Assembly: GCA_964019425.1 (NCBI GenBank)
Contig: OZ025816.1
Coordinates: 1 to 64,000 of the forward strand
Origin: Flectonema sp. DT1601
Lineage: Eukaryota; Euglenozoa; Diplonemea; Diplonemida; Diplonemidae
Direction: 5' to 3'
DNA length: 64,000 nucleotides
In this document: positions 19,886 to 56,696 of the stretch, in pieces
Layout: each line of letters begins with the position of its first letter
Position numbering within the stretch: the stretch's first letter is position 1
Notes under the pieces: generated by a model
Told to the model about the DNA's origin: nothing
The model's database searches: none
The model's input: only the letters and a program-made list of their open reading frames with translations
Translations under genes and position numbers: made by a program

Positions 19886-22424
19886 AGTTTCGAATAAACT
19901 GTAAAAATAGCCATCAAACAGAAATCAACTCAATTATAAACAACTGAGGGACTCGATACTTATAATCTACGGCTGACCTGAAATAAAAAGAAAAAAACAA
20001 CAATTTAATAACATCTCACATTACAAGGTATGACAATTGGAGGGAGGAAGAAACTCTAATACCTGGACGGCAAGAGTTTCTTTAAAGGAAAGCGAATCGC
20101 TCAAATGATAACAAATAATTAATAACTTTATCGTTTCTCAGATAGATGTCATTTGACAAACAACTGAGTTGGAATACAAGTTCCTACGAAAATAAATAAT
20201 AACATTAGAAATTCCACATAAGCTCGACAACACAGGATGCAACACGACGTTTTCAGAAATGCCAGCTCCCTTACTTGCGGATGGACATCAAATCCAAAAG
20301 GGACTTTGAGTGGGTTGGTGTTCTTTCAACTCTTTCCACCAGAGCTCTGTTGGTTGCTCCGTGGATTCCGTAAGGTCTTTCTTGTAATTCTTTCTTTTGT
20401 TACTAAACAAGGAAAAAGAAAAGGAAGAGACACCCGATGATGATGAACTAGACGACCCACCCTCCGGGGTGTTTGCAGTAGAAGACGGAATAAATTCCGT
20501 CCGAATAAATTCAAAACTCGCTTGCAAACAGTTAGAAAGGAGGAGGAGGGGAGAGAGAAAAACAAGGCTAAAAATCAATCGCCACGAAAGGGATCAACCC
20601 AGGAAATCGCTTTGCAACCAACCAACCAACTAAGACAACCATCACTCACTCACTCGCCAACATTCCCAACACATTCTTCTAGAACAAGAACATGAAAACG
20701 AGAGTATTAAATGATCAGGTTTCCGACTGAAAAATAACGAGCAGCGCAGAAGACCAAAATGCATGAAATACAAAACAGTTTCTTAAAGAAGAAAGCAACA
20801 ATGGTATGTTAAAAGTGCCTGGAAAAAAATGAGTACTCAGCTTTTAAGAAAAAAAGGGTTTGTATCAAAATAAAATCATAAAATTTGTAACCGCACGTTC
20901 CAAACCCGAAAGCAAAACTCCAGATAGACACCACACCACACTACACGCACAACACATTTCCACCATTCCCTCCGAAAACAGCACTCAAACCGATGGCGAG
21001 CAAGAAGTCTTTTTTCACCAAAGGTTCAGCGTTGTCGTCGTAGAAGGGAAGAATAGATGTCATTCTCTCCATCGATCTCGAACAACAATTCGAAACCACG
21101 ATAGCTCAGGAAGGGACCTCACGGCAATCAGGTGGTTGCTTGATGAAAAGCTGATTGAGAGAATTTCTCAACAGATCCAAAATCTGATCACACACGCCTC
21201 CGTGGGGAACACACCGAACAGAAGAGGGCTTTCTGCTGCTGCAGCGCACCCAAGGGGATGTCCGCGGAGACGGCGTGGCTTTTCATTGTGAATAGAATAT
21301 ACTAGGGGGGAAAGAAAAAGGACAAGAGAAAGACAAGGGTAAAAAAAAAGTGGGAGAAAAGGGGAAAAGGAATGATAAAAGAGAAAGGTAGACGCTTCTT
21401 CATCGCTTCCTCCTCGAAAAAAAAGAAGTGATGCCAAGCTGAACACAGTGCTTGCCGGGCAGGGCAATTACAGGTTTCAACCATTCGCGTCACAACAACA
21501 ACATTTTTTTATATTTTTCACTGGTCACGAGGAAGAAACAACGAGCGTGGAGAGGGAGATTGTCAGTTGGTGTGGTGGGAACCAAAAAAAAACAATTTTA
21601 CGAGGCAGCGAGGATTAACCATCTCAAAAAACGGTCATCCGTTTTCGATATGGGAAATCAGTGTTTATGAGATCGGTTCGTTTCCTTTTTATTTCTTTTC
21701 TAAAATTAAACTTCTCCGCAAAACACAACTTCTCAAGGTGTGACTTAACCGCGATACAATCGGTTTCAATTTCTTATTATATCAACTTGGAAAAAAGGCC
21801 AAAATCTAGCAAAACAACAACAACTAAAATAAAAAAGGGCCGTTGATTTCAAATCATTTTTCAAGCGACAAGGAGAAGGAACAGCTGACCGCGGACAGCT
21901 GCTCCCCAGAGCGCAGAAACACTGCGGTCGTCATCCCAAGCAACAGCGTGCATGTACACGTCAAAAAACAGAATGCGTGTGCAGAAAGATACTTCACTGC
22001 CAAGTTTGCTTGGTTGGTTGGTTAGTTGTTTATTTGTGTGCTTCGCTTGGACCACTACGTATCTACTAATATATAGTAGGGTAAGAAAGTTTCCCCGCCT
22101 CGTTCGAGGAGAGGGCACAAAGACTTGGCGCATTTGTCTCCGTGAAGAAGGAAGGCATCCCACGGAATCGTTGGTTTGTATTGAGCCAACTTGATTAATT
22201 TTTTTTTTTCTTTGAGTTTTTTTTTGAGTTTTTGCAGTCTCTCTTCTGCACAAAAAGGGACGAGAAAAAAAGAGTCAGGGGTCACAAGTCAATTTTGAAG
22301 CAAAATAAAGAATGCTTTGGGCGGTTCTATAAGACGCAAGATAGAGGGGGAGGGAGGAAGAGAGAGAAAACTCGTGATACATGAATAAAAGACAAAATCA
22401 CGAAACCAACAACACGAAACCACC
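19886..22424. other. Spacer upstream of PARP-like gene; holds RNA element D
   Basis: There is no supported protein gene in this 2.5-kb stretch. Open frames on both strands, including a 143-codon plus-strand frame at 20,860-21,291, have no recognisable domain and unconvincing composition. The stretch contains the candidate structured RNA at 21,741-21,934, listed separately. Confidence 0.5.
21741..21934 (+). ncRNA. Candidate structured RNA, copy D (3' of lectin 1)
   Basis: The compact form of the family, 194 nt. The ends pair: GTGAC (21741-21745) with GTCAT (21930-21934), then ACCGC (21749-21753) with GCGGT (21924-21928). Conserved blocks in order: GTGACTTAACC; CTTATTATATCA; AAGGAGAAGGAACA at about 21869-21882; CCCCAGAGCG. 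Between blocks two and three, CTTG-AAAAA (from 21786) pairs with TTTTTCAAG (21857-21865). Between blocks three and four, AGCTG (21883-21887) pairs with CAGCT (21896-21900). The G-T pair at the outer end is a wobble only if the plus strand is the RNA. This copy has no T-run just downstream. It lies 490 bp beyond the lectin 1 stop. Family identity and function are unknown to me. Confidence 0.5.
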
Positions 22425-24095: not shown

Positions 24096-27000
24096 TATTG
24101 TGATGTTTTTGTGTTGAAAACTGAATGAGAGAATGTTGCATTGAACAAGATTGATATTGTAGTTTAGGTAATTGTTTTATGAGAAGTTAAAGACGTCTTC
24201 ATTAGTAAAGTTGTTTCGAACGTTTCTGGTAGTCCAGTAGAGAATCGCATGTTATTTTCGTGTTTAAGAATTATGAATAAGTTGAGATTTTGATAAACAA
24301 AAAAACCACAAATACAGTAAGAGGAATGAGGTGTTGGAATACTCGAAAAAATGAAAGAGTTTGATAAAAACAAGCGGTTCGAACTTGGAACGTGTGATTA
24401 GTGGAACTGACAACTACTTTATGAAGTTAAGATTTCCTGCCCTTGTTGTCGGAGTACTATAAAAATTAAAACATCTCTTTAAAATCCATCAAAACATAAT
24501 CGCAAAAGAAAATAATATGGAAACCACATTACTATTTCTTAGGAATACCAAAATTAGCGAAAGTCAACAAACTAAAAGATCACAAGAGATGTGTTTTTAA
24601 TTGTCACAAAAATACAACACAAAAAGTTTTTTTTTAAAAAAATGAACCAAAAAAAAAAGGGTCGAATGATGAAAACGGCAAAAAGCCTTGTGAATGAAGA
24701 ATGCAACTATGAAGCAATATCCAGAAAGAAACATCGAGTGTTGACGATGGCTATATCTTTTCTGTTACATTTAATAAATGTGAATGGGTTTGAAGCTGCA
24801 GTTTACGAACACACGTCTGCCGATAGGTAACTAAAAAAACAAAACATTTAAATTGAGAGGAAGGAAGTTTTTTTTGATCTGACTTTGAGAAAGATCACGT
24901 CATTCGCATGAGACCAGCATAATAATTAGCAAATAACTTCTTGAAGTTTTTTTTTTTTTAAATTTTAAAAAAAAAAAAAACCAAATAAAAACAAGAAATT
25001 TATTTTTTTTTGAGATAGCCATACAAATAAGTAACGCGCTAAAGGCGAAGGATGGAATGAAAGCAAAAAAAAAAATTAAAAAAAAAATTATAAAAAAAAA
25101 ACTGTAATCAAATTGTGAAAAAAGTGATTCACAATAACGATGACATCGATGTATGTAAAACAAGCAAAACAAATGTTTAATTCTTATCGCTTCTCATGTA
25201 TCACAACTCCAAGGCTTTCATGAGAACTGTCTTTTCACACAAAACAAAGCTCAATTTGAGTTACAAGAAAATTCAGTTTCCCCCGAACATTGTTAAGTGC
25301 GAAATGACATTAGTGCTCATTGAAAGATAATTCAGAGCCATGATTAAGATGAGATTAGGTTTGGTTGGGTAGATGTCTGAAACTGTTACTGAAATCAGTC
25401 AACTCAGGTAAAAGGAAACTCAAACAACAATATTGTGATTTTGTTTCCTCCAACACTCCTTTTTCAGTTATTAAGTAACAATGCTATCGAAAGTAGTTTT
25501 GATTGATTGAAGTGTTTCTTTGGTATTCTGTTTAAGTTGAGAACACCTATCAAACACCTTTTGTTGCCAAACCCTGCTATTGAACAGTATCACTTTTTGA
25601 ATACAAACAAATGGGATTTGGACTGGGAACGAATCGGGGGATTGGGAAATGATTGAGAAGAATAGGAAAAACTCCGTTATTACCCTGTGTTTTCAGGTCA
25701 CAGTTGGTGAATTTAAACGGTTGAGAGTTAGATGTTAAGTCAAACACGAAGTTGTTTTGTATCTACCGGTTGCTGTAATAACTTCCCGCGTGGATCAGGT
25801 CCCATTAGGTTATTTTTTTTTTGCATTTTTGTTTTTGTTTTTTCAATTTCGTGTTTTTTTTTTTTTTTTTTTTGTTGTTTCCTACTTCCTAAAAAAAAAT
25901 TCTTTCCGGTGGGTAGGGCGAGAAGCTATCCAAGCCAAGCCAAGCCAAACGCTACTTTGGTAGTTTCGGTAAGTCATTTTCGGTACAATTTACCTTCAGA
26001 CGTTGCAATATGAATTTAGTTATCTTGTTTCCAATTGAAAACAAAATTAAAATTGACAACACCAACTGCTGTACCTTACCTTGGTTAGAAGTACTCTTAA
26101 CAAATAGAGCCGAAAAACAATTCCAATAAAGGAAGCGACTGCTGAACAAGTATTACAAAACACAAAACACAAAAAAAAAAAAAAAAATTGAATTGAAATG
26201 TTTTTTTCTTTTCGCTTTTCTTTTCTTTTTCACACAATAAATCGTGCATGAGGCTAGTTCAGGGGATTTGATGAATATAAACACCTCGCCGTTTAACACC
26301 AACAGAGTAGTATGTCAAATGTTAAATGGTTCTTTTTATTGTTTTTTTTTTTTTGTTCTACCTCATTGCAACTATTAAAGCAATCGACCAACTAACAGGT
26401 CAACATTAGTTTGGGATCAATTATAGTTTTCTTTCAAAAAAAAACAGATTTTTTTTCTTTCTTTTTCTTTCTTTTTTTTTTTTTTTTGCTTTAAAATGCA
26501 AATTTTCATTTATTATCATTACTTTTTTTTTTTTTTTTTTGATTGATTTTCGCAACATAGCAACGTGACTTAACCTTTTTAAGGTGTAAATCTCTTATTA
26601 TATCAAACAAAGAAGGGTTTTCCTACAAAAAGAAAACAAAGGAAGCTTACCTTCCATGCGATAAGGAGAAGGAACAAATGCCGAGAGTATATTCACAAAC
26701 ACAACTAATCCATTAAGATATTTGCGGCAAGGGCGAAAAATAGCTTCTACGAATTTAACATTTTGCAAGCAAAAAACTCCAAAAAACAAAGCTCCCCAGA
26801 GAGTACATCACCAAGGTCGTCACACCCGCGTGAAAAACACAGAATGGTTAATTTTTTTTTTTTTTTTTTTTTTTCAAAAGTCGGTGGGGGTTGAAACTAT
26901 TTGGAAGGGAATAACATAAACAGACACAGACTGCGTTTGATAACAGACTGAACTCACTCTACATGATTACAACAAGACATCATAACTCCATCATCCAAAT

Positions 27001-27163
27001 GAAAGGAGAAAGGATGCTAATCTTGTTGCAAATCTTCGCAAACCGGAGCGAGGGGGGATGTGTTTGGAAACGTTTAACAAATCTCAGTAATGCTTGGGGG
27101 CATTCCAGATAGGAAGGATTCAAAAATAAAACTAAATAAAATAAAAGAAAATTCGCAACCACA
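24096..27163. other. Spacer between lectins 1 and 2; holds RNA element C
   Basis: 3 kb of AT-rich DNA with many homopolymer runs (for example T-tracts near 25,850-25,875 and 26,470-26,545). No supported protein gene. It contains the candidate RNA at 26,565-26,823. A short (CCAAG)3 repeat lies near 25,928-25,947. Confidence 0.5.
26565..26823 (+). ncRNA. Candidate structured RNA, copy C (3' of lectin 2)
   Basis: 259 nt. The terminal helix is GTGAC (26565-26569) with GTCAC (26819-26823), extended by ACCTT (26573-26577) with AAGGT (26813-26817). Copy D has ACCGC with GCGGT at the same place, so both sides changed together. Blocks present: GTGACTTAACC, AATCTCTTATTATATCA, GATAAGGAGAAGGAACA and CCCCAGAG. 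The hairpin between blocks two and three is GAAGG (26612-26616) with CCTTC (26650-26654), plus an inner TTCC with GGAA. A TAATTTTT run follows about 25 nt after the element, which would suit a pol III-type end on the plus strand. It lies 340 bp beyond the lectin 2 stop. Confidence 0.55.
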
Positions 27164-28816: not shown

Positions 28817-31800
28817 TTTTTTTTTTTTTTTTTGTCGCAAGAACTGTAAGAAGGAACATTTAAACATTCAGAAAACTTCGAAGATAAACCTGCTGACATT
28901 TGTGTAAAGTACTGAATTGTGAAATATGACGTGAAGAAGGTTTTCGTTGGTGTCGAATTCTAGTAAAGGAGGAGGGGTTACCAGAGCGATCGAAAACGAT
29001 TTGTAGTTTAAAATATGTGATAACTCGATTACGGGAATAACGACACAGCAGGTTGACAAATGCAATAGAAATGTCCTCCAAACAGTGAAGACAGGTGACC
29101 GATGAGAAACTAAGCAATTACTAAATTTTCAACGGAAAATAGAGGTTTTGATGAAAATTTTCACGAAACAGCGTTTTGCAAAAAAAAATAAATTAATTCG
29201 AAACGCCATTTTCACGAAAATTTTGTGATTTTGTTTGACAAAAAAAAAAAAAAAGAAAAAAAGAAAGGAAAAGCCGCTGTTAGGGACCCCCCCACACCCC
29301 ACACAGCCGTGACTCTCAGTTGACGAGAACAGATGTCAGATAATGAAGTCGATTCTTATCAAAAGAGAGAAGGAGAACACTACTGGAAGTTAGAAGAATT
29401 TTAGAATACAAAAAGTAAACAAATAATTACAAGCAACTGGACAACACGACGGCACAAAGACTGCCGTCCATAAAGTAATTACACATCCGAAGTTGTCCAC
29501 TTCTCTTTCACAAATATCAGACTGAAGAAGGAACTGTTGTAAAAAGGTTTCGGAGTACTAAAAATATACAAAAAAAACAGGAGGTTACCCAACCGAGAAG
29601 ACAACAAGTCTACGGGTGGGAGGAGCGTAAGCTCGCAGAAAGCGTCGCTTGTTACAAAATAATTGCAAGGATTCCTCTCAGCTCCATCAGCTGATGTTTT
29701 GACGATAATATAAATGGTAGCTACGAGTTCCCTTTCTAACTTATGCAAGTCATTGTAAGAAGGTGGTTTGGGAACAAAACTCAACAATTGCTACCTTCGA
29801 AGCAAAAATAGAATTCATTTTTTCCAAATGAACAGTTCTGATAAAAAGGACTCCATTCGATCATACGAAGGAATTAAAGAAGTTGAAGTTCGTTACTTCG
29901 CTACTCATAAAATATTTCCTTTTGTATAATTTGGTTGACAAAACTTTTGTTCTTTCGTAGTCGTTTCTCTATTTTGTTCGAACAGTCATTCAAACGATTT
30001 TGATAATAAAAACACATCTGAGTTGAGTTCTTAATTTAGTAAACAATCGTATTAAAGTTGACTGATGAGTTGATTAGTGTTACTTGTCTTCAGTGGACTA
30101 GTTTCACGACGAACTTTAGGAGATAACTTCGAGGTAAGGAAAAGGTGAACAGTGTGATACTTAACGAAGGCCTTCAGAACTTAGTTACCCAAACTCTGAT
30201 GAACTTCTACGTTCACCCAAACCACCAGTTTTGATCGAGGAAAAGGGTGGGAAACAGAAAGAAAACACAACCTGGCACAGGCATAGCGAGGAAAGATAAG
30301 ATTTTTTTTTTCTCTTTTTTCTTTTTTTTTTTTTTTGACGAACCGGGATTTAGAGGGAAGAGAGTCATTTTGCTTACGAAGACGTGAAACATATTTCGGA
30401 CTTTCTAGTAAAGGAAAAAAAAATTTGGGGGGGAAAAAAAACAAAAAAAAGAAGCAAAAAAAAAACAAAAAAAAAAAAACGGGAAGGAAGAAGAAATAAG
30501 CAGAAATCCTTTCGGATATGTTTCTATTTTTTGTGAATCAAATCATTATTTTTGGTTATATTTATTTCTCTTTCGTTAGTTTTTTTTTTTTTTTTTTTTC
30601 CACTCCTTTCGAATAACATTAAAAATAATAATCACAAAAATGCAAAGGAGAGGAAGTAGGGAGAGAAGCTATGCCAAAGCGGAAAGTAGCCAAGAAGCAA
30701 CTGCCTAACTTTATGATACGGATATAAGACAAGGTGCTTAACTGCGATATTTCGCATTTTGATGTATTTTTAGCTCGGGTTTCACAAAACTTTGATAGCA
30801 CTCCAGGAGAACACCAGAACGTCTACTTCAAGAAAAAAAAGATAATTTTATTTCAAACCTTTTTGTGCGCACACATGACTCTCATCGTTAAAATTATTTA
30901 AAAAAAAATAAAAATAATCCTCTACTTCTTATATGATCTTTTTCGGATTTTTTTTTTTTTTTGGTCCGTTCGCTAACAAAAAAAAAAAAAAAAAAAAAAA
31001 ATTAAAAAAAAATTGTAAATATTGCAGCGCAGTCACAGTTGTTTCTTTCCACAGAGTCAAAGCAACGCAAAAGTACATTTTACGTTCCAATTGTGACAGG
31101 AATCGACTTCATAAAAAATCCACAACTAGAATGTAGATCATTTCAAGGTGTGAATTTGAAAAGTTATTTTTTTCTGATAACGGTCGCATTGCTAATATTG
31201 TATTTTGTTTGTTTGTATGTCAGAAAAAATCTGGGGAAACTATATTTTAAAAAAATAAAAAAAAAAATTCTTTTCCAAACGACGGCATACTTCAAGTTTT
31301 TTATTATTTATTCCTTTCATTTTCTCACAACATCTAATTGTTGTGACTTAACCACAACATGTTAATCTCTTATTATATCAGTGAGGGGTTTCTTTAACTT
31401 TAAAAAAAAAAATAACAATAAGATAACCCTCAAATGATAAGGAGAAGGAACAAATGCTACGATTCTCTTGATTGCGACATCAGACAAACACACTCAATTA
31501 AATTCAAATAATATCCGGGCTGCTTCGAGAGTGACCACGGAATAACATTAGTAACAATGGTACGTTATAAGAATGGGAATCAAGAATCAAAACAAAGTTC
31601 CCCAGAGCGTACAACACTAAGGTCGTCACAACAAAACATATTGCGTTCATAACTTAAAACACTTTTACATAATTTTTTTTTCTCGTAGTCAGTAATATAA
31701 TTGGGTAGGGACTTAGTCTTGTCTTTCAAATCAACCACCAGCGCCATCAATCAACAGGCGGGTTACTTCTGTTACTCATCACAACAATTTTACGAAGAAA

Positions 31801-31977: not shown

Positions 31978-33624
31978 TCACATGGTTGGATCAACAGCAC
32001 AAATGGCGCACGAGTTTCCGTTTCCATTTTGCGGGCCCGTATTTCTAGGGCACCAGTCCTCCGCACATGCACCATTCTTCCAGCTGCATCCCGAGGTCGC
32101 CCCACACTCATTGGCATCGTTCGCATTCTGGCACGGCATAATCTGTGAAACTCCGAACACCACGAATTTCGAAAGGTCCGAGGTCAAGAAAGGAAGGTCG
32201 ATCTCCTCACCCGAAGCGATTCTTCTTCTGAACGCAACCATCGAGTGCTCGAACCCGTCGTTGTTCTCAACGAACCTCGGTGCGCACGAACCCGCCTGCC
32301 ATCCGTCCGACAACAACGAAGCAGGGAGACCTCCGTTCTCGTTCTTGCAAGGTGGACACAGGTAGTGGGTCACGTAGATGTCACAAGGCTTGTCGTCACA
32401 TGAGAACGGACACTTCATTCTAATCGCTGATCCAGACACGAGCGTGTCAACTGAGAACGCCTGCACAACCTGTCCGTTCGTTTCAGTCAGGTACTTCGGA
32501 AGCTTTGTCAGCATCGCGTTCGTCCAAGCAGGCATACCAACAGTCACGTCGTTTCCGTCCAAAGCCTCAGTGAATCCGTTCGGCTTGATGATCGAACCAG
32601 TCACAGGTGCACTCGGTGGGCAAGTGTCGTGGAGAACAACTGCCTGAGAGATGTATCCGTTAGGCATGCAAGTCTCAGCAATGTCTCCCCACTCGCACAT
32701 GTATCCCTCGATGCTGTGTTCCAGTGGGTAGTCATTCCAGATACCGTCAGAATAGAAGTGAGCGTAGTCCTCACCAGCGGTGGTGCAAAGACCAGGACAA
32801 GGGCTTCTGTACTCGTTAGGCTCCGATGACTTGAAGTTGTTGTACATTCCCGGCTCAGCAATCAAACCAGCTCTGTCCGACCTCTGTCTTCCGATGAGAG
32901 TTCCAAGTCCACCGCAAATCGCCGAGTTGCAAGGCTGAAAAGTTGGCTTCAACACCCCCAACGGGCACGCAGTTCTCTCGAACCCGTCCACAGAGAGGTC
33001 GTATGGAGGACATCCTTCCGGTCCCACCACCCACCTCCACTCACGCTCCACACCGGCATCCGAAGCCCCCATCCAACCTCTTCCGGTCAGCTTCGACTCC
33101 GCGATGTTCTGCTCTTCCTGGCTCGTGATCGTCATCAGGTATCCCGGCAGTCCCAAGATGTCGTTGTCCCTGTTGGAACAAGAAATCTGTGCCTCCTGCC
33201 AGCTCAGCTTTCCACCGAAGTAGTTGTAGAAGTGATGGTTCTTTCTCGAAAACAAACCGTGCCCGTAGTTCAGCACCATCAACCTCCCTCCAGCTCCGGC
33301 AGGTGTGAACACGACCGATGACAAAGCAGTTGCGTATTGCTCAATAGTGTGTGCACCCGAAAGCTGCATCTTGTCCCCGTTGAAGTCGCTGGTGATCCCG
33401 AGACTCGAGCATTTAGTGCAGCTCAGAATGTCACCGCTGTGGAATCCTTCCTCAATGTGAACCGCAGCCCCTCTGATCACCGTGTCACAATCACAGCTTC
33501 CCGTGAAAGGAACGTCCGCACAATTCTGGTTCGGGAACGGCTTCATCGTCTCACCGACTTTGATCACCGCGTCCCCCAAGGCTGACGCAGCCATCAGTAG
33601 TATTCCGCTTACCGCAGTCTTCAT
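31978..33624 (-). CDS. Secreted C-type lectin 3
   Basis: 548 residues, complete. Its 5' flank resembles that of the gamma genes, and it stands where a gamma gene would in the repeating alpha-beta-gamma order, but its 3' flank is unique. Distinctive residues: ADVPFTGSC, GDILSC, GITSDFNGDKM; GVLKPTFQPCNSAIC in the lectin-domain insert where others read LQPTFQPCDSAIC; SSEPNEYRSPC and GIWNDYPLEH around the calcium site. EPN and WND are both intact. An acceptor-like TCTTCATTCAG ends 25 bp before the ATG (AG at 33,650-33,649). Confidence 0.93.
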   Translation of the reverse strand: MKTAVSGILLMAASALGDAVIKVGETMKPFPNQNCADVPFTGSCDCDTVIRGAAVHIEEGFHSGDILSCTKCSSLGITSDFNGDKMQLSGAHTIEQYATALSSVVFTPAGAGGRLMVLNYGHGLFSRKNHHFYNYFGGKLSWQEAQISCSNRDNDILGLPGYLMTITSQEEQNIAESKLTGRGWMGASDAGVEREWRWVVGPEGCPPYDLSVDGFERTACPLGVLKPTFQPCNSAICGGLGTLIGRQRSDRAGLIAEPGMYNNFKSSEPNEYRSPCPGLCTTAGEDYAHFYSDGIWNDYPLEHSIEGYMCEWGDIAETCMPNGYISQAVVLHDTCPPSAPVTGSIIKPNGFTEALDGNDVTVGMPAWTNAMLTKLPKYLTETNGQVVQAFSVDTLVSGSAIRMKCPFSCDDKPCDIYVTHYLCPPCKNENGGLPASLLSDGWQAGSCAPRFVENNDGFEHSMVAFRRRIASGEEIDLPFLTSDLSKFVVFGVSQIMPCQNANDANECGATSGCSWKNGACAEDWCPRNTGPQNGNGNSCAICAVDPTM

Positions 33625-34984
33625 TATTGTGATGTTTTTGTGTTGAAACTGAATGAAGAAGAAGATGTTTTACATTTCCAATCACGACTACCAACAACTC
33701 ATTGAGGGAGGGAAATTACGAGGTTCGTTGCAGGTTGAAACTCAAAAAGATGATGAATTGCAGAGGAGGGGGTTCGCTCCGAAGATTAGTACTGCGGTCT
33801 GCGAAAGGAAAGGAAAGAAGCTACCAACCAACTAATTAATTAGATTGATTGATAGATAATGAAATCCATTACATTACATTTTGAAAATCGCGAACTATGG
33901 AGCATCGAGTAAGCTCTATAGCGTTAAAAAAGGAATAGTGCAATTTCATTACGCATGTAAAGGATGTATCAAAGCAAACAAGAAGTGACCAACTTGTTAC
34001 TTTAAAGCACAAAAGATTTATATAAAAGAGATCTGTGAGGTGACTTCAACTAACGGGAAGAGAATAAGTTTGTTCAATTCAAATTAATTAAAGAGCACCC
34101 GATTTACTTCGAGTAAATGACAAAATCTCAAAACGTGTGTTGACAGCATTACTACAACACTCAAACAAGGAAGTTGGCAACGATGTTAAAAGTTTTTGAA
34201 TGATCGAAACAAAGGAACTTTTTTATTTTTCTATTTCCCTTTCACATCGTTATTCCAAGACACCCCTGTAAACCAACCCTTGGAATTAGTTGAAATGATT
34301 TAATTTCAGTATTCTTTAATAATATTACCAACAAGTCAGACATCAGAAGTACAGCGATAATCAATTACGACTTACTTCACTTGAGTTGGTTTGGCAGCAC
34401 TCAGTAGAATTAAAATAACAAAACAAGAAGAGCTTTCCTCAATAGTCTCTAAGAACTGAAGCGTTCAACTCACCCAAACCATACAAGGCCAAGGATAACA
34501 TTGCAAAGCAGAAAACAAACAAAAAACAATTTAAATGTATCAAAAAAGAATAAAAAATGATGCCAATCAGAAAGCCATTTCAATTCATTCTGCTCAGCCT
34601 TTCAAACACAATTCAAAGCCTGTGATTTAACCGCAAACGTGACAATTTCTTTTTATTTTAGCTTGGCATTAATAATTTCTACAAATAAAGCTATCAAGAA
34701 AAAAACATGTTTTGATACCTAACCTCGAACATCCGAGAACACGTTGGGTGGGACAACCTTTCCTAAAGAAAGAGTTGACTACAAATATATAAGTTTCGGC
34801 ATTCAAAGGTTTGTATCAAAACAAGAATTACAGTCATCACATTTCAGCATTTAGTGTCGAAAGTATTAACAAACGTAGTTTTCAAAGGTCAGTAACACGG
34901 AGAATTCCTTGTTTGAAAAATATTATTACACACACAACTCTTAAAAACGTTTTTCTTACTCCTCCCATCCTGTATCAAGTTACA
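33625..34984. other. Spacer between lectins 3 and 4
   Basis: Related to the spacers between lectins 6-7, 9-10 and 12-13, with insertions and deletions. It holds the promoter box at 33,775-33,797 and, at 34,622, a decayed start of the RNA element (GTGATTTAACC then CAATTTCTTTTTATTTT). No gene seen. Confidence 0.55.
33775..33797 (-). promoter_or_regulatory. Shared promoter box upstream of lectins 3-12
   Basis: On the gene strand the box begins CCGCAGTACTAATCTTCGGA and ends GCG. It sits about 130-170 bp before each ATG. Further copies: 36,778-36,800; 41,119-41,141; 44,181-44,203; 46,815-46,837; 47,918-47,940; 50,980-51,002; 54,158-54,180; 58,474-58,496 (one mismatch); 61,477-61,499. It stays identical between the alpha-type and beta/gamma-type flanks, which differ around it, so it is probably constrained. 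A promoter or transcription-factor site is the likeliest role. Lectins 1 and 2 lack it. Confidence 0.45.
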
Positions 34985-38859: not shown

Positions 38860-39127
38860 GTGACTTAACCGATATCAAAGTGTTTAATCTCTTATTATAT
38901 CAAATAGAAGGCTAGCCTTACACGATAAGTAGAAGGAACAGGTACTGTTGGTCTAGACTCCAAATAGTTGTCTCGCTGAACATCAAAAGCAGAGAGCGAT
39001 GTGAATGTGAGGAGTCCTCAGAGAGAACCAATCACACTCAAAAGTTCTTCCATCATCCAAAGACAACAACGGAGGGAATGAGTTTTCAGTAAAAGTCCCC
39101 CAGAGCGTACAACACGGCGGTCGTCAC
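38860..39127 (+). ncRNA. Candidate structured RNA, copy B (3' of lectin 5)
   Basis: 268 nt. GTGAC (38860-38864) pairs with GTCAC (39123-39127), and ACCG with CGGT. Blocks: GTGACTTAACC, AATCTCTTATTATATCA, GATAAGTAGAAGGAACA, CCCCAGAGCGTACAACAC, GGTCGTCAC. The second hairpin is short: AAGG (38908-38911), loop CTAG, CCTT (38916-38919). Within the long third interval ACTCC pairs with GGAGT. An AATTTTATTTTTT run follows about 25 nt downstream. It lies 203 bp beyond the lectin 5 stop. Confidence 0.55.
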
Positions 39128-40976: not shown

Positions 40977-42390
40977 TATTGTGATGTTTTTGTGTTGAAA
41001 CTGAATGAAGAAGAAGATTGTTTTACATTTCCAATCACGACTACCAACAACTCATTGAGGGAGGAAAATTACGAATTTCAAAAACCCGCAAAGATGATGT
41101 ATTGCAGAGGAGGGGGTTCGCTCCGAAGATTAGTACTGCGGATTGCGAGAAGAAAGGAAAGAAGCGACCAACCAACTAATTAATTAGATTGATTGATAGA
41201 TAATGAAATCCATTACATTACATTTTGAAAATCGCAAACTACGGAGCATCGACTAATCTCCACAGTGTTGAAAGGGAAGATTCGAGCAACGTGTGTTGAC
41301 AGCATTACTACAACATTCAAACAAGGAAGTTGGCAACGAGGATAAAAGTTTTTGAATGTTCAAAGAAAATAGCTAGTTGGAATTATGAAATAAAAAATCA
41401 GATTTCACAACAAGCAAGAATCCAAATATTCCGTTCCCCAAACGGGAACTTCTCTTTGTTTTTTTTCACATCATTCATTATTTCAGGAAATCACTTTGTA
41501 AACCAACTCTTGGAATGAATTGCAATCACGACACAATGCAAAAGGGAGAAAGCGGGGAGAGAGAAGCTGTCCAAACAGTTGAACAACTGATAACAAACTA
41601 ATTTTTAATAATTAATTTGATTTCAGTATTCTTTAATAATATTACCAACAAGTCAGACATCAGAAGTACAGCGATAATCAATTACGACTTACTTCACTTG
41701 AGTTGGTTTGGCAGCACTCAGTAGAATTTAAATAACTAAACAAGAAAGCTTTCCTCAATAGTCTCTAAGAGCTGAAGCGTTCAACTCACGCAAGCCATTC
41801 AAGGCCAAGGATACCATTGCATTGAAAAGCAGAAATCTCAAATATCAAAACAAAAAATATGTAACAAAACAGAAAAAAAAAACCAAGAAAAAAATGAGGG
41901 TTCCAAAATTCCGACACTTGACCAACGAATTCGACCAAGTGACAAAATAAGAAAGTAAAAAATGATGCCAATCAGAAAGATATTTCAATTCATTCTGCTC
42001 AGCCTGTCAAAAACATTCCAAAGCCTGTGATTTAACCGCAAACGTGTTAATTTCTTACTATCTCAGCTTAAAAGGCAGCAATAATTGCTCCAACAAAACG
42101 AATTAAGAAAATGGGAAAATGTTTTGATACCTAACTTTGAACATCCGAGAACACGTTTCGTGAGATTCATATAAGTAAGTCTTGGGCATTCAAAGGTTGG
42201 TAAGCAAATCAAGATTTACGGTCATCACTTCGATTCAGCATTTAGTGTGGAAATTATTAACAAACGTAGTTTTCAAAGTCGGTAACGTAGAGAGAGAGAG
42301 AGAGAGAGAAACTGAATTTAGAAAGAATCCAGTTGCACAAACAACGCTCTCCCAAACAAATTCACATAAAAGTTACTGTATGAAATTACA
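40977..42390. other. Spacer between lectins 5 and 6
   Basis: Beta-to-gamma spacer, repeated at 47,776-49,189 and 58,344-59,686. It holds the promoter box at 41,119-41,141, a (GA)n run near 42,290-42,309, and a decayed RNA element start at 42,027 (GTGATTTAACC then TTAATTTCTTACTATCTCA). No gene seen. Confidence 0.6.
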
Positions 42391-44037: not shown

Positions 44038-45559
44038 TATTGTGATGTTTTTTGTGTTGAAACTGAATGAAGAAGAAGATTGTTTTACATTTCTAATCAC
44101 GACTACCAACAACTCATTGAGGGAGGAAAATTACGAATTTCAGAAACCCGCAAAGATGATGAATTGCAGAGGAGGGGGTTCGCTCCGAAGATTAGTACTG
44201 CGGATTGCGAGAAGAAAGGAAAGAAGCGACCAACCAACTAATTAATTAGATTGATTGATAGATAATGAAATCCATTACATTACATTTTGAAAATCGCAAA
44301 CTACGGAGCATCGAGTAAGCTCTATAGCGTTAAAAAAGGAATAGTGCAATTTCATTACGCATGTAAAGGATGTATCAAAGCAAACAAGAAGTGACCAACT
44401 TGTTACTTTAAAGCACAAAAGATTTATATAGAAGAGATCTGTGAGGTGACTTCAACTAACGGGAAGAGAATAAGTTTGTTCAATTCAAATTAATTAAAGA
44501 GCACCCGATTTACTTCGAGTAAATGACAAAATCTCAAAACGTGTGTTGACAGCATTACTACAACACTCAAACAAGGAAGTTGGCAACGAGGATAAAAGTT
44601 TTTTTGAATGATCGAAAGAAAATAAAAAGTCAACATTCCACAACAAGCAAGAATCCGAATATTCTGTACCTGAAGCAGAACTTTCATTTGTTTCTTTTTC
44701 ACATCGTAATTCCAGGAAATCACTTTGTAAACCAACTCTTGGAATGAATTGCAATCACGACACAATGCAAAAGGGAGAAAGCGGGGAGAGAGAAGCTGTC
44801 CAAACAGTTGAACAACTGATAACAAACTAATTTTTAATAATTAATTTGATTTCAGTATTCTTTAATAATATTACCAACAAGTCAGACATCAGAAGTACAG
44901 CGATAATCAATTACGACTTACTTCACTTGAGTTGGTTTGGCAGCACTCAGTAGAATTTAAATAACTAAACAAGAAGAGCTTTCCTCAATAGTCTCTAAGA
45001 ACTGAAGCGTTCAACTCACCCAAACCATACAAGGCCAAGGATACCATTGCATTGAAAAGCGGAAAAAAAAAGAATTAATATCAAAAAAAACAGAAATGTA
45101 TAAAAAAAAGAACAAAAATGATGCCAATCAGAAAGCCATTTCAATTCATTCTGCTCAGCCTTTCAAACACAATTCAAAGCCTGTGATTTAGCCGCAAACG
45201 TGACAATTTCTTTATATTTTAGCTTGGCGTCAATAATTGCTGCAAATAAAGCTATCAAGAAAAAAACATGTTTTGATACCTAACTTTGAACATCCGAGAA
45301 CACGTTGGGTGGGACAACCTTTCCTAAAGAAAGAGTTGACTACAAAGAAATAAGTTTCGGCATTCGAAGGTTTGTAATCAAAACAAGAGTTACAGTCATC
45401 ACATTTCAGCATTTAGTGTCGAAAGTATTTATATACGAAGTTTTCAAAAGTCGGTAACACGGAAAGAGAGCATTCTTAGTTTGAAAAATATTATGACACA
45501 CAACTCGTTCCCAAACTCAATAACAAATCTTCTTTAAACGTTTTCTGCATCAAATTACA
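44038..45559. other. Spacer between lectins 6 and 7
   Basis: Gamma-to-alpha spacer, repeated at 50,837-52,364 and 61,334-62,861 and related to 33,625-34,984. It holds the promoter box at 44,181-44,203 and a decayed RNA element start at 45,183 (GTGATTTAGCC). No gene seen. Confidence 0.6.
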
Positions 45560-46668: not shown

Positions 46669-47500
46669 TATTGTGATGTTTTTGTGTTGAAACTGAATGA
46701 AGAAGAAGATTGTTTTACATTTCCAATCACGACTACCAACAACTCATTGAGGGAGGAAATTTACGAGTTTCAGAAACCCGCAGTGTTGATGAAAAGGTTG
46801 CCAGGGAGGGTGTTCGCTCCGAAGATTAGTACTGCGGGATGCGAGGAATGAAATAGGCAACGAGATATCAGTTAAATGCGTTGTACGGAAGAAAATTAAA
46901 TTCCCTCGAAACACAACTTACACGGTACTCCTTCTGTCAAATGTGAGTGACGTTAAGATTAACAGGAACACGTCCGCAATGTTCACCAATTAATTGATGT
47001 GAAATTAAAAGATACCAAACAATTAAATAAAACCGTTTGATGATATCTTTAAAAAATTTTGATTACCCGACGGGTGGGAAATGGAAAGAATCAGGTGTGA
47101 CAAAATGAGCAAGAAATAAATAAAAAGCTCATCATCTACGCAACAGAACAACATCTCCCGTGTAGACGATGACATACAACACAACTCACAAGTAAGGAAG
47201 TTGCACAAGCTAATCATTTTTTTTTAAAATACCCTATTTCATCTTTAGAAAAATAAAGAAAAACCCTCCTCCCGAGAAATAGGAAGAGGAAGTAAGTTAG
47301 ATAGATAAGGAAGTTGTACTTCATTAACTAGTATTAGCAAAAATAATTAAAAAAGGAATTTTAATTTAATAAAGAAACAGACCAAGACATCAAACTTTTC
47401 TTCCGACCAAACCCATTCAATGTCCAGCACTCTTCTTTATTAGTTGGTTGGTCAGTTAGGAATTTTTGTTTAGTTAACCCGCAGCAAGGACCCAATTTAA
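46669..47500. other. Truncated alpha-beta spacer
   Basis: Matches the start of the spacers at 36,632 and 54,012 up to the GACCCAAT string near 47,496. It then joins, through about four extra bases (TTAA), the inside of lectin 8. It holds the promoter box of lectin 7 (46,815-46,837). The RNA element B and the 3' stem of the snRNA-like element are missing because of the deletion. Confidence 0.8.
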
Positions 47501-47775
47501 CGTTCACCTGAAAGCTGCATCTTGTCCCCGCTGAAGTCGACGGTAATCCCGAGACTCGAGCACTTAGTGCAGCTCAGAACATCACCGCTGTGGAATGCTT
47601 CCTCGATGTGATCCGCAGCTCCCTTGATCACCGTGTTGCAATCACAGCTTCCCGTGAAGGGAATGTTCACGCAATTCTGGTTCGGGAACGGCTTTAGCGT
47701 CTCACCGACTTTGATCACCGCGTCCCCCAAGGCTGACGCAGCCATCAGTAGTATTCCGCTTACCGCAGTCTTCAT
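47501..47775 (-). pseudogene. Lectin 8 pseudogene, beta type, 5' fragment only
   Basis: Only the first 91-92 codons of a beta gene remain: signal peptide and most of the beta-sandwich, to LSGER. Relative to the intact unit (54,840-58,068) about 3.2 kb is deleted, taking the rest of the gene and most of its 3' spacer. The 5' flank and promoter box are intact, so it may still be transcribed. AADHIEEAFHSG replaces the AAVHIEEGFHSG of other copies, consistent with relaxed constraint. Confidence 0.93.
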
Positions 47776-49189
47776 TATTGTGATGTTTTTGTGTTGAAAC
47801 TGAATGAAGAAGAAGATTGTTTTACATTTCCAATCACGACTACCAACAACTCATTGAGGGAGGAAAATTACGAATTTCAAAAACCCGCAAAGATGATGTA
47901 TTGCAGAGGAGGGGGTTCGCTCCGAAGATTAGTACTGCGGATTGCGAGAAGAAAGGAAAGAAGCGACCAACCAACTAATTAATTAGATTGATTGATAGAT
48001 AATGAAATCCATTACATTACATTTTGAAAATCGCAAACTACGGAGCATCGACTAATCTCCACAGTGTTGAAAGGGAAGATTCGAGCAACGTGTGTCGACA
48101 GCATTACTACAACATTCAAACAAGGAAGTTGGCAACGAGGATAAAAGTTTTTGAATGTCCAAAGAAAATAGCTAGTTGGAATTATGAAATAAAAAATCAG
48201 ATTTCACAACAAGCAAGAATCCAAATATTCCGTTCCCCAAACGGGAACTTCTCTTTGTTTTTTTTCACATCATTCATTATTTCAGGAAATCACTTTGTAA
48301 ACCAACTCTTGGAATGAATTGCAATCACGACACAATGCAAAAGGGAGAAAGCGGGGAGAGAGAAGCTGTCCAAACAGTTGAACAACTGATAACAAACTAA
48401 TTTTTAATAATTAATTTGATTTCAGTATTCTTTAATAATATTACCAACAAGTCAGACATCAGAAGTACAGCGATAATCAATTACGACTTACTTCACTTGA
48501 GTTGGTTTGGCAGCACTCAGTAGAATTTAAATAACTAAACAAGAAAGCTTTCCTCAATAGTCTCTAAGAACTGAAGCGTTCAACTCACCCAAGCCATTCA
48601 AGGCCAAGGATACCATTGCATTGAAAAGCAGAAATCTCAAATATCAAAACAAAAAATATGTAACAAAACAGAAAAAAAAAACCAAGAAAAAAATGAGGGT
48701 TCCAAAATTCCGACACTTGACCAACGAATTCGACCAAGTGACAAAATAAGAAAGTAAAAAATGATGCCAATCAGAAAGATATTTCAATTCATTCTGCTCA
48801 GCCTGTCAAAAACATTCCAAAGCCTGTGATTTAACCGCAAACGTGTTAATTTCTTACTATCTCAGCTTAAAAGGCAGCAATAATTGCTCCAACAAAACGA
48901 ATTAAGAAAATGGGAAAATGTTTTGATACCTAACTTTGAACATCCGAGAACACGTTTCGTGAGATTCATATAAGTAAGTCTTGGGCATTCAAAGGTTGGT
49001 AAGCAAATCAAGATTTACGGTCATCACTTCGATTCAGCATTTAGTGTGGAAATTATTAACAAACGTAGTTTTCAAAGTCGGTAACGTAGAGAGAGAGAGA
49101 GAGAGAGAAACTGAATTTAGAAAGAATCCAGTTGCACAAACAACGCTCTCCCAAACAAATTCACATAAAAGTTACTGTATGAAATTACA
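47776..49189. other. Spacer between lectins 8 and 9
   Basis: Copy of the beta-gamma spacer. Promoter box at 47,918-47,940, (GA)n run near 49,089-49,108, decayed RNA element start at 48,826. No gene seen. Confidence 0.6.
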
Positions 49190-50836: not shown

Positions 50837-52364
50837 TATTGTGATGTTTTTTGTGTTGAAACTGAATGAAGAAGAAGATTGTTTTACATTTCCAATCACG
50901 ACTACCAACAACTCATTGAGGGAGGAAAATTACGAATTTCAGAAACCCGCAAAGATGATGAATTGCAGAGGAGGGGGTTCGCTCCGAAGATTAGTACTGC
51001 GGATTGCGAGAAGAAAGGAAAGAAGCGACCAACCAACTAATTAATTAGATTGATTGATAGATAATGAAATCCATTACATTACATTTTGAAAATCGCAAAC
51101 TACGGAGCATCGAGTAAGTTCTATAGCGTTAAAAAAGGAATAGTGCAATTTCATTACACATGTAAAGGATGTATCAAAGCAAACAAGAAGTGACCAACTT
51201 GTTACTTTAAAGCACAAAAGATTTATATAGAAGAGATCTGTGAGGTGACTTCAACTAACGGGAAGAGAATAAGTTTGTTCAATTCAAATTAATTAAAGAG
51301 CACCCGATTTACTTCGAGTAAATGACAAAATCTCAAAACGTGTGTTGACAGCATTACTACAACACTCAAACAAGGAAGTTGGCAACGAGGATAAAAGTTT
51401 TTTTGAATGATCGAAAGAAAATAAAAAGTCAACATTCCACAACAAGCAAGAATCCGAATATTCTGTACCTGAAGCAGAACTTTCATTTGTTTCTTTTTCA
51501 CATCATTCATTATTTCAGGAAATCACTTTGTAAACCAACTCTTGGAATGAATTGCAATCACGACACAATGCAAAAGGGAGAAAGCGGGGAGAGAGAAGCT
51601 GTCCAAACAGTTGAACAACTGATAACAAACTAATTTTTAATAATTAATTTGATTTCAGTATTCTTTAATAATATTACCAACAAGTCAGACATCAGAAGTT
51701 CAGCGATAATCAATTACGACTTACTTCACTTGAGTTGGTTTGGCAGCACTCAGTAGAATTTAAATAACTAAACAAGAAGAGCTTTCCTCAATAGTCTCTA
51801 AGAACTGAAGCGTTCAACTCACCCAAACCATACAAGGCCAAGGATACCATTGCATTGAAAAGCGGAAAAAAAAAGAATTAATATCAAAAAAAACAGAAAT
51901 GTATAAAAAAAAGAACAAAAATGATGCCAATCAGAAAGCCATTTCAATTCATTCTGCTCAGCCTTTCAAACACAATTCAAAGCCTGTGATTTAGCCGCAA
52001 ACGTGACAATTTCTTTATATTTTAGCTTGGCGTCAATAATTGCTGCAAATAAAGCTATCAAGAAAAAAACATGTTTTGATACCTAACTTTGAACATCCGA
52101 GAACACGTTGGGTGGGACAACCTTTCCTAAAGAAAGAGTTGACTACAAAGAAATAAGTTTCGGCATTCGAAGGTTTGTAATCAAAACAAGAGTTACAGTC
52201 ATCACATTTCAGCATTTAGTGTCGAAAGTATTTATATACGAAGTTTTCAAAAGTCGGTAACACGGAAAGAGAGCATTCTTAGTTTGAAAAATATTATGAC
52301 ACACACAACTCGTTCCCAAACTCAATAACAAATCTTCTTTAAACGTTTTCTGCATCAAATTACA
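50837..52364. other. Spacer between lectins 9 and 10
   Basis: Copy of the gamma-alpha spacer. Promoter box at 50,980-51,002, decayed RNA element start at 51,986. No gene seen. Confidence 0.6.
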
Positions 52365-54011: not shown

Positions 54012-56696
54012 TATTGTGATGTTTTTGTGTTGAAACTGAATGAAGAAGAAGATTGTTTTACATTTCCAATCACGACTACCAACAACTCATTGAGGGAGGA
54101 AATTTACGAGTTTCAGAAACCCGCAGTGTTGATGAAAAGGTTGCCAGGGAGGGTGTTCGCTCCGAAGATTAGTACTGCGGGATGCGAGGAATGAAATAGG
54201 CAACGAGATATCAGTTAAATGCGTTGTACGGAAGAAAATTAAATTCCCTCGAAACACAACTTACACGGTACTCTTTCTGTCAAATGTGAGTGACTTTAAG
54301 ATTAACAGGAACACGTCCGCAATGTTCACCAATTAATTGATGTGAAGTTAAAAGATACCAAACAATTAAATAAAACCGTTTGATGATATTCTTAAAAAAA
54401 TTTGATTACCCGACGGGTGGGAAATGGAAAGAATCAGGTGTGACAAAATGAGCAAGAAATAAATAAAAAGCTCATCATCTACGCAACAGAACAACATCTC
54501 CCGTGTAGACGATGACATACAACACAACTCACAAGTAAGGAAGTTGCACAAGCTAATCATTTTTATTTAAAATACCCTATTTCATCTTTAGAAAAATAAA
54601 GAAAAACCCTCCTCCCGAGAAATAGGAAGAGGAAGTAAGTTAGATAGATAAGGAAGTTGTACTTCATTAACTAGTATTAGCAAAAATAATAAAAAAAGGA
54701 ATTTTAATTTAATAAAGAAACAGACCAGGACATCAAACTTTTCTTCCGACCAAACCCATTCAATGTCCAGCACTCTTCTTTATTAGTTGGTTGGTCAGTT
54801 AGGAATTTTTGTTTAGTTAACCCGCAGCAAGGACCCAATCGCAAGGAACGTAGTTTCATAGCTTCGGCGATTCCCAGCTCGCTCCTTGCCCAGAGGCTAA
54901 CAGGTTGAAAAAAATATATAAAAGGGAAATGGGAGGGGGGAAGGTGAAAAAAAAATAAGAAATCTTTTTAATTCCATATACAGCATCTCTCTTTGTAAGG
55001 CCGACCATTTGTTCGGAACCCTAACTCGTCCAAATCATTGTAATTGTACTGCGTAGGTCTTGCAGAAAACAATAAACCAGAAGTTTATTATTTTACGTCT
55101 TCTTCAAAATAAAAAAGAATTCAAAGAAAAACAGGAACACGAGACTCTCGAACTCATCAGTTTCTTCACCAGCAAATTGAAAAAATATAACAAATGCTGA
55201 AATATTTTTAAAAAAATAAAAAACTTATTCTCGAAAAAATAGTTGTAATTCTCCTCTTGTCAAGAAACGAGAAGAGAAGCACAAACAGTACAACTTTAAG
55301 CAGAAAAAACAACTCAACTTCTAATATACTTTTAATGATGTGCTCGTGTACACATCTTTGCGGGTTTGCACATGTTTTATTTTTTCTCCTCTTCAATCGA
55401 ACAAGACTGTTATCTGGTGAAACCGTAAAGCCCAAAGAGGAGGACTACACGAGCTGTCAAACTTGTAATTTATTTGTTGAGTTTACTTAAAAGAAAAAGA
55501 GAACAATTGAGAAAGAAAGGAAATTCCAATACCACAGAGCATTAGTATACAAAAATTGTTGTGTTAAAATTCGAAAACATAAAAACTGCCACACTCAATG
55601 AAAACGAAGCCCAACAAACCTCGTAATCGGCGAAGAGACGATTGCTATTTGAAATGCTTCCTCAACACACGTGTTGTTGTTTTATGAGGTTGGCTGAACG
55701 TATGATCCAAAATAGGCAGTCAAGAAATAAGGCAACAAGCCATCTACACACGAGGCTTATTATTAAATGGTTCTTTTTAAATAAAAGACAACAAGGGAAA
55801 GAGAGCAAGCGAAAAAAAGAACCAAGGCACCTTCATTCAGAAAGGAATTTGTTTTGTTTGAAAAAAAAGAGGAGGAAATAATTAACGTCGGTTAATTATT
55901 TCGTTCCTGCCGGGGGTTGGGAGTCAAGCAATGCGAGAACGTCTTTGTCGTTCCCAGTTATTCAAATAAGAAACCACTCAACACAACAAGGATGTCAAGC
56001 ATGCCAAGTGTACTTCAGAGTGTATTCAATTTGTAACCTTTCACATTTACATCGCTTTTCAAAAGTTCACACAAAATAATTTTGACTGGGAATGGGAATG
56101 AGGGAATCTCGCCAGTCTCACGTTGCAAATATATTTATTAATTATTTTTCATTTTTTTTTTTCTATTTTTCCTGTGCCAATTGACACACAAAACGAACAC
56201 ATAATTTCAATTACTAAGAAACGGTAGTGACTTAACCGATATCAAAGTGTTTAATCTCTTATTATATCAAATAGAAGGCTAGCCTTACACGATAAGTAGA
56301 AGGAACAGGTACTGTTGGTCTAGACTCCAAATAGTTGTCTCGCTGAACATCAAAAGCAGAGAGCGATGTGAATGTGAGGAGTCCTCAGAGAGAACCAATC
56401 ACACTCAAAAGTTCTTCCATCATCCAAAGACAACAACGGAGGGAATGAGTTTTCAGTAAAAGTCCCCCAGAGCGTACAACACGGCGGTCGTCACGAAGTG
56501 AATCTCTGATCGAGCAAAACATAATTTTATTTTTTCATTCATTGTTTGTTAACTTACATGATCTTCAGAAGTCTGTACCACAAATGATACATCTTTTGTT
56601 ATATCCCTTCCACGACAGACAAGATAATCATGTTGTTAGTAAGGCAAGAGTCAGAATGACAAGGAAATCATTTAATATCAAGAAACCACAACCACA
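54012..56696. other. Spacer between lectins 10 and 11; holds RNA element B'
   Basis: Near-identical copy of the lectin 4-5 spacer. Promoter box 54,158-54,180; snRNA-like arrangement 54,748-54,889; candidate RNA 56,227-56,494. No supported protein gene. Confidence 0.55.
56227..56494 (+). ncRNA. Candidate structured RNA, copy B' (3' of lectin 11)
   Basis: 268 nt; I see no difference from copy B, as expected from the recent cassette duplication. It therefore adds no independent covariation evidence. It lies 203 bp beyond the lectin 11 stop. Confidence 0.55.

Follow-up and report, generated by a model that had tools for sequence, protein, structure and literature searches.

Introduction

In Trypanosoma brucei, a 16-mer in the 3′UTR of the VSG genes, a surface-protein multigene family, is described, with CFB2, as required for mRNA stability (PMC5698767, PMC8051951). 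Elements in the 3′UTRs of the procyclins EP and GPEET (the 26-mer and loop II) are reported to affect both stability and translation and to be bound by CCCH proteins (PMC3070815), and a stem-loop in the NT8 3′UTR is described as a structured RNA needed for regulation (PMC4066783). For euglenid unconventional introns, base pairing is reported to join both ends, and the same source gives co-directional gene clusters, spliced-leader addition and a median 3′UTR length of about 800 bp for Diplonema papillatum (PMC10161547). The euglenozoan UTR elements that we found described come from parasites.

Here we examine a family of elements associated with lectin genes in a 64-kb window, the whole 64,000-nt stretch of DNA analyzed, which an original prediction had taken to be a separate structured RNA paired with each lectin gene. 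By title or abstract start, the open-access literature on diplonemid genomes and lectins yielded no such element, and nothing on diplonemid riboswitches was found there, subscription papers lying mostly outside the scope of both searches.

Lectin Genes and Their Host

We refer to these genes as C-type lectins because a search with the lectin protein finds C-type lectin chains among known structures (best E 2.6e-06) and its relatives carry Pfam PF00059; run directly against Pfam, the lectin matched no lectin family even with the cutoff relaxed to E 10. CATTCAG lies 24–25 nt before the lectin ATG in 9 of 9 copies compared, and together with the pyrimidine-rich stretch that it ends (Table 1) likely forms a putative spliced-leader acceptor. 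A spliced-leader tail pattern had 727 genome matches with at most one mismatch against 0 for controls, many of them in arrays with a spacing of about 610–623 bp. The closest named relative of a neighboring kinase is from D. papillatum (48%). Together, the Diplonema relatives of its genes and the spliced-leader-like sites identify the genome as euglenozoan.

Table 1. Positions of the elements and of an example lectin gene in the window.
Feature	Position	Strand	Remarks
Canonical element, type A	21740..21934	− (sense strand)	Block-defined limits
Canonical element, type B	26565..26823	−	Block-defined limits
Canonical element, type C	31343..31629	−	Block-defined limits
Type C blocks	31343-31353, 31364-31380, 31436-31452, 31600-31609, 31621-31629		Positions on + strand
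Canonical element, type D	38860..39127	−	Block-defined limits
Canonical element, type D, identical copy	56227..56494	−	Block-defined limits
Diverged element, type X	34622..34840	−	GTGAT/ATCAC terminal stem; blocks 3 and 4 unrecognized
Diverged element, type X	45183..45402	−	Downstream of broken lectin copy
Diverged element, type X	51986..52205	−	
Diverged element, type X	62483..62702	−	
Diverged element, type Y	42027..42228	−	
Diverged element, type Y	48826..49027	−	
Diverged element, type Y	59323..59524	−	
Lectin gene (example)	31978..33624	−	548 aa, single open frame; element C starts 348 nt past stop
Pyrimidine-rich stretch ending CATTCAG	33625..33666	−	Upstream of lectin ATG

Canonical and Diverged Elements

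All five elements of the original prediction are present where it had placed them (Table 1), each with the five blocks in invariant order, and the hairpins that it described in the inter-block intervals can be read from the sequence. Copies four and five do not differ in sequence, which leaves four independent copies, as had been counted, and there are only about four canonical lineages. Conservation in the canonical copies, judged by eye, starts and stops abruptly at the terminal stem. Identity between copies is 77–94% at fourfold coding sites and 91–97% in the element blocks; since the fourfold sites are this similar, the lectin coding sequence is too homogenized or too recently duplicated to date the 3′ flanks, and we infer constraint on the element from conserved blocks that adjoin unalignable spacers.

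The claim that an element accompanies each lectin gene held in altered form: among the 12 lectin loci of the window (a count that excludes a short piece at 47491), five carry the canonical element, while the other seven carry a diverged form, type X or Y, that had been missed and that has a GTGAT...ATCAC terminal stem. Two stem pairs that are C-G in canonical elements are U-A in X and Y, which are double compensatory changes. Folding of X and Y is about equal on both strands (z −2.7 and −2.5).

A covariance model (R1), which we left out of the element counts, recovered the canonical elements of the window, four of which had been used to build it. It covered the full length of type A only (117.5 bits over the entire element, a sequence included in the build), reporting B and D as halves and C as a single part; Y copies scored weakly (15 bits, E 0.19) and X copies were unscored. 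Scans with Rfam release 15 gave no gathering-threshold match in the 64-kb window, where a tRNA scan gave no match either, and permissive Rfam scans of elements A, B, C, and D returned sub-threshold matches only, to families that differed from element to element, in keeping with the prediction that the elements match no known family. We rejected SNORA18, which matched element C at E 0.046 with 24.1 bits, where the gathering score is 70, and did not match A, B, or D.

Distribution of the Elements in the Genome

We scanned the whole genome (89.5 Mb) for blocks 2 and 3 separately, with one or two degenerate positions in each and no mismatches. Both patterns occurred at the same 14 places and nowhere else (reversed-pattern controls, 0), and each of these 14 canonical places, spread over two contigs (C37 and C40), sits just downstream of a lectin gene, always in the same relative orientation. 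When two mismatches were allowed, blocks 2 and 3 gave 90 and 65 matches against 63 and 24 in controls, and outside C37 and C40 the nearest block 2/block 3 pair was 3,259 bases apart. Three one-mismatch block 2 places, inspected as possible distant copies, lacked the other blocks. The block patterns also matched 81 + 32 viral-contig stretches, none of which (0/113) had both blocks, and viral relatives were likewise rejected. We also rejected a transposon or MITE, as all 14 canonical places adjoin lectin genes, with no dispersal to unrelated sites, and the 12-nt flanks of A, B, C, and D show by eye no direct repeat of the kind left by target-site duplication.

Some form of the element was found in 30 of the 33 lectin copies examined (14 canonical and 16 diverged), and three were without any form. 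The lectin search of C37 gave 34 rows, of which 30 were examined, leaving out two N-terminal and two stop-bearing pieces. A lectin paralogue on C50 (53% identical) had no element in the 1.3 kb searched. In the ten copies measured, the element follows the stop codon at 144–549 nt on the coding strand (144–490 nt in seven window copies and 548–549 nt in three C40 copies), as a 3′UTR cis-regulatory RNA would.

The lectin array recombines, and in one copy (C37:126788) the 3′ flank has been replaced just before the element's place. Element type showed no clean agreement with a coding tree of 29 copies; this tree omits two fragments (45563 and 73360) and two long frames (87351 and 117278).

Consensus Fold and Strand

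RNAalifold, which the original prediction had proposed to run on both strands, gave a consensus fold for the five full elements, stronger on the lectin-sense strand (−18.9 kcal/mol) than on the opposite strand (−11.3 kcal/mol), which was the one the prediction had used. The strand that it chose is probably not the right one, as the alignment folds better on the lectin-coding strand (z −5.4 vs. −3.4). In a trimmed six-sequence alignment, z was −5.35 for sense and −3.36 for opposite, with 0 of 300 column shuffles reaching either; with one sequence per lineage, the values were −5.32 and −3.15 (0/300 and 1/300 shuffles), and with a variant from outside the window (C37:134588) replacing D they were −4.42 and −2.18 (1/300 and 7/300). 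Sequences folded singly did only modestly better than their dinucleotide shuffles (sense z from −0.9 to −3.5), and across 10 elements neither strand was favored: the better z fell on the sense strand in five and on the opposite strand in five, including B, C, and A2.

The structure that we propose pairs 95.3% of 191 cells, compared with 39–50% in slid versions, and its covariation score exceeded 500 of 500 shuffles; for further pair types, 116 of the 500 did at least as well, and for pairs with both sides changed, 12 did. The ends pair through the terminal stem in types A, B, C, D, X, and Y. The compensation reported to flank the terminal helix does extend pairing in A, B, and D, but C pairs ACC/GGT only and the C37:134588 variant shows no extension. 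The TCTC/GAGA helix has one pair broken in D and one in A1. Varying stem pairs outside the variable arm included seven G-U on the sense strand and three A-C (10 and four with that arm), a weak wobble asymmetry in favor of the sense strand, on which the structure itself was picked. The conserved fold lies on the mRNA strand, as expected of a 3′UTR element, with few independent sequences behind it, and the element probably forms an RNA fold on the strand that encodes the lectin.

Discussion

Our preferred reading, in which we place somewhat better than even confidence, is of a structured RNA that acts in cis from the 3′UTR of lectin mRNAs, is probably protein-bound, and sets stability or translation. 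We observed the position of the element, the confinement of its canonical form to lectin 3′ flanks, the conservation of its blocks, a consensus fold and compensatory changes. The element would be included in the lectin mRNA. On the lectin (minus) strand, a terminal stem, GTGAC GACC ... GGTT AA GTCAC, would close a branched structure with two arms. The first would rise from a conserved base, GGGGAAC/GTTCCTT, to a tip that varies. The second would start with TCTC/GAGA, continue through an asymmetric internal loop, with CT on one side and TAATAA on the other, and through TATCG/TGATA, and end in a hairpin that also varies. A putative RNA-binding protein, which may set the stability or translation of the lectin mRNA, would probably make contact with the conserved strands that stay unpaired; we propose this mode of action because euglenozoan gene control is thought to be mainly post-transcriptional and to act largely via 3′UTRs. 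A precedent comes from trypanosomes, in which mRNAs for surface proteins carry 3′UTR elements (PMC8051951, PMC5698767, PMC3070815).

The GAGA strand may alternatively pair with CTCT of the 5′ linker, and a bistable RNA switch in the 3′UTR of a euglenozoan multigene family is a further idea, to which we give a low probability. The strand around AAGAGA would then pair either with CTCT of the 5′ linker or with TCTC at the second arm's base, each pairing excluding the other, and lectin output could be switched by a ligand or protein that tips the balance. Pairing of AAGAGA with CTCT had a mean probability of 0.86–0.98 in B, C, D, and the 134588 variant, and in A2 the TCTC partner was ahead (0.40 vs. 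0.18). The TCTC pairing is also backed by compensatory change in X and Y, in which, judged by inspection, both kinds of partner seem to be kept with altered sequence.

The alignment fold and the double changes support the original prediction of a conserved structured RNA, but the place of the element after lectin stop codons makes part of an mRNA likelier than a separate RNA gene. A gene for a trans-acting non-coding RNA next to each lectin gene, whichever its strand, would fit the abrupt limits of conservation seen by eye at the terminal stem, which suit a discrete transcript. On the opposite strand, too, the alignment beats shuffles (z −3.4), and for 5 of 10 elements that strand gives the better single-sequence z. 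We nonetheless regard such a gene as unlikely, since a trans-acting RNA would not require a copy at nearly every lectin gene, the genome scans found no canonical copy away from lectin genes, the window has no Rfam gathering or tRNA match, and the alignment fold is better on the sense strand. That last difference, which is clear, also counts against an element acting as DNA, such as a landmark for recombination or gene conversion or a series of sites bound by proteins, whose fold would follow from inverted repeats that fold on either strand. Recombination in the array, with the replaced flank of C37:126788, and the loose relation of element type to the coding tree of 29 copies speak for such an element, but conserved single-stranded blocks separated by variable hairpins are not typical of cruciforms, and we consider it improbable.

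Very improbable, in our judgment, is a ribozyme or a signal for RNA processing by which the 3′ ends of lectin mRNAs would form: the branched fold, the conserved unpaired strands and the location past the stop codon would suit one, but no ribozyme family was among the Rfam matches and we recognized no known catalytic core. We give least credence to a Euglena-like unconventional intron in the 3′UTR, its ends joined by pairing. The two ends of the element do pair in all types from A to D and in X and Y, but the interior of unconventional euglenozoan introns is understood not to be conserved, and that of the element strongly is. What we take to be the euglenid end motif is absent from the corresponding positions of the element. 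Such introns are reported in some unclassified diplonemids, but the same source describes none as detected in D. papillatum (PMC10161547).

If the element is real, a probable diplonemid would have a conserved, structured UTR element of large size that accompanies an entire family of lectin genes, and its natural variants (canonical, X, and Y) could be compared with one another. One could then ask whether UTR control of multigene families predates parasitism.

As described, the VSG 16-mer shares with the lectin element its nature as a conserved motif in the 3′ regions of a euglenozoan multigene family, but it is a short linear motif of other genes, whereas the lectin element is a branched structure of 190–290 nt. 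The intact 16-nt motif was not found in the ten elements, and part of block 2 with the following linker resembles it, as published (PMC9044945), if a gap of 6–8 nt is allowed. The best scores were 10–13 of 16 in the ten elements, with a gap in each, and a score of 13 was reached in 7 of 10 elements and 2 of 400 control windows for a resemblance spotted after the fact; possible homology to the 16-mer is a weak lead. The procyclin elements are likewise 3′ cis-elements of one protein family, in their case abundant surface proteins, but are described as a 26-mer and a loop and not as a branched structure of the lectin element's size. NT8 offers another structured 3′UTR RNA, described as a short single stem-loop in contrast to the branched lectin element. 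With the euglenid unconventional introns the element has end pairing in common, and it differs from them by its conserved interior.

Element blocks and their pairing with lectin genes

The coordinates originally predicted for five elements matched ours to within three bases, and the blocks were indeed found in a fixed order (GTGACTTAACC, AATCTCTTATTATATCA, GATAAGGAGAAGGAACA, CCCCAGAGCG and GGTCGTCAC, with small departures from block sequence), separated by intervals that differ in sequence and length. As a chance test, blocks 2 and 3, each allowed one or two degenerate positions, were run separately against the 92 contigs (89.5 Mb) of the genome that contains the window. Each matched 14 times, at an identical set of 14 places (11 on C37, contig OZ025816.1, which holds the window, and three on contig C40), while the reversed-pattern controls gave none in the same 89.5 Mb. 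With two mismatches allowed, blocks 2 and 3 matched 90 and 65 times, compared with 63 and 24 for the controls, and the nearest pair of these blocks outside C37 and C40 lay 3,259 bases apart. A series of block-3-like 17-mers on contig C31, near which this two-mismatch scan placed no block 2, is probably an unrelated tandem array.

The complete genes adjoining the elements lie on the minus strand, and each is a single-frame ORF of 548–567 aa; they are relatives of C-type lectins, the best match of solved structure having E = 2.6e-06. The EPN and WND motifs typical of mannose-type C-type lectins were invariant across six aligned family members, and an acceptor-like CATTCAG common to the lectins lay 24–25 nt upstream of the ATG in nine of nine copies inspected. 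The family search returned 34 rows on C37, three on C40 and one 53% paralogue on contig C50. Segments 34–50% identical to the lectin's N-terminal part also occurred on contigs C3, C10, C56, C70, C23, C31 and C59, inside single open frames of ~12,400 to 18,600 codons, with units roughly 38–44 kb apart on the repeat-bearing contigs among them.

All canonical elements lie downstream of a lectin stop codon, in one relative orientation throughout; this holds on C40 too, where both gene and element are inverted. Among 30 C37 copies examined, 11 had a canonical element, nine the diverged form X, seven the diverged form Y and three no element; the C40 copies were canonical in 3/3, and the C50 paralogue had no recognisable block within 1.3 kb downstream. 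Forms X and Y start with GTGAT and end with ATCAC, and blocks 3 and 4 are no longer seen in them at the thresholds used. The five elements first predicted stand, with the X and Y copies missing from that count. The stop-to-element distance was 144–490 nt in seven window copies and 548–549 nt in the three C40 copies.

Locations of individual features (window positions are those of C37)
Location	Feature	Observation
Window 16952-19885	977-aa gene	Weak match to a PARP domain, under the Pfam cut-off
Window 27164-28867	Lectin copy B	N-terminus unlike other copies compared
Window 31978-33624	Lectin gene	Among the six aligned for EPN and WND
Window 45560-46668	Broken lectin copy in array	Keeps type X element downstream
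Window 47491-47775	Broken lectin copy in array	
C37:87351	Lectin copy inside open frame of 2,005 codons	No element block in 750 bases past lectin match
C37:117278	Lectin copy inside open frame of 2,013 codons	No element block in 750 bases past lectin match
C37:134588	Canonical element variant	Outside the window
C31:286237-332041	Block-3-like 17-mers	18 matches, spaced ~2 to 6 kb
C16:1432460-1446807	Spliced-leader-like array, among matches listed	~623 bp spacing
C20:1248665-1287266	Spliced-leader-like array, among matches listed	~610 bp spacing

Proposed fold and strand

On the lectin (minus) strand, the terminal stem pairs GTGAC with GTCAC and, beyond an AA bulge, GACC with GGTT, the first arm pairs GGGGAAC with GTTCCTT beneath a variable arm, and TATCG pairs with TGATA beneath a variable hairpin. 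The AAGAGA strand has two possible partners, CTCT in the 5′ linker or TCTC directly past the first arm. In the CTCT register 95.3% of 191 cells were paired versus 39–50% with slid partners, a margin that a structure fitted to these sequences gains for that reason alone. The covariation score in this register exceeded all 500 shuffles, and for two of five structure measures 12 and 116 shuffles out of 500 did at least as well, bearing in mind that related sequences can outscore shuffles. The TCTC register scores similarly (94.1% of 186 cells paired). In X and Y, pair 5/340 and, in the TCTC register, pair 203/311 have U-A in place of C-G, both bases having changed; these compensatory changes amount to a small number of events that several copies inherited, and the stem exceptions are C-A at 203/311 in A1 (a copy of type A) and A-G at 205/309 in D.

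The original prediction had read the element on the plus strand, which is most likely wrong: the alignment folds better on the lectin strand, although the single-sequence z-scores are neutral between the strands. Five full elements gave −18.9 kcal/mol on the lectin strand versus −11.3 on the plus strand, and a trimmed six-sequence alignment gave −21.1 (z −5.35) versus −12.6 (z −3.36), equalled by 0/300 column shuffles on either strand. Using A2, B, C and D only, z was −5.32 versus −3.15 (reached by 0 and 1 of 300 shuffles), and with the 134588 variant swapped for D it was −4.42 versus −2.18 (1 and 7 of 300). Single-sequence z-scores, spanning −0.03 to −3.70, were better on the lectin strand in A1, D, the 134588 variant, Y1 and Y5 and on the plus strand in B, C, A2, X1 and X2. 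In the lectin-strand reading, columns 4, 32, 33, 66 and 69 of the trimmed alignment exchange A and G opposite a constant U, and three constant stem pairs are G-U; A-C falls at columns 1, 24 and 74 and once in X2. Varying stem pairs were G-U rather than A-C by 7 to 3 without the variable arm and 10 to 4 with it, a sequence-level imbalance that is suggestive only in favouring the lectin strand.

Setting and interpretation

The best named relative of the neighbouring kinase is from Diplonema papillatum (48%), with closer matches from transcriptomes. A pattern presumed to represent the tail of euglenozoan spliced leaders gave 727 genomic matches (≤1 mismatch) versus 0 for the control, many in ~610–623 bp arrays; isolated copies outside the arrays may stem from retroposition of transcripts. 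On these grounds we regard the host as a diplonemid or a near relative of one. In D. papillatum, mRNAs bear spliced leaders, genes form extended co-directional clusters that are presumed to be transcribed together, and the 3′UTR median is ~800 bp (PMC10161547). From these features and the stop-to-element distances, the element would fall in the 3′UTR. We conclude that the element is real and conserved, is probably structured and most likely acts in the lectin mRNA. The best reading of these analyses, in which we infer both mRNA inclusion and effect, is a 3′UTR element that would act in cis within the lectin mRNA and be occupied by an RNA-binding protein.

Comparison with known systems

No Rfam family fits the element, in agreement with the original prediction that it belongs to no known RNA family. 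Surface-protein mRNAs of Trypanosoma brucei have 3′UTR elements affecting stability and translation (PMC5698767, PMC8051951, PMC3070815). Block 2 and its linker resemble the 16-mer of T. brucei VSG mRNA 3′UTRs if a gap is allowed: the score was 13 in 7/10 elements (A2, B, C, D, the 134588 variant, Y1 and Y5) and 10–12 in A1, X1 and X2, and among 400 random C37 windows two scored 13 and 26 scored 12. Spotted post hoc and gapped, this sequence resemblance is a lead only. Unconventional introns share paired ends with the element; unlike it, they are not known to have a conserved interior. The element's sequence and setting are new, and its kind is already known.
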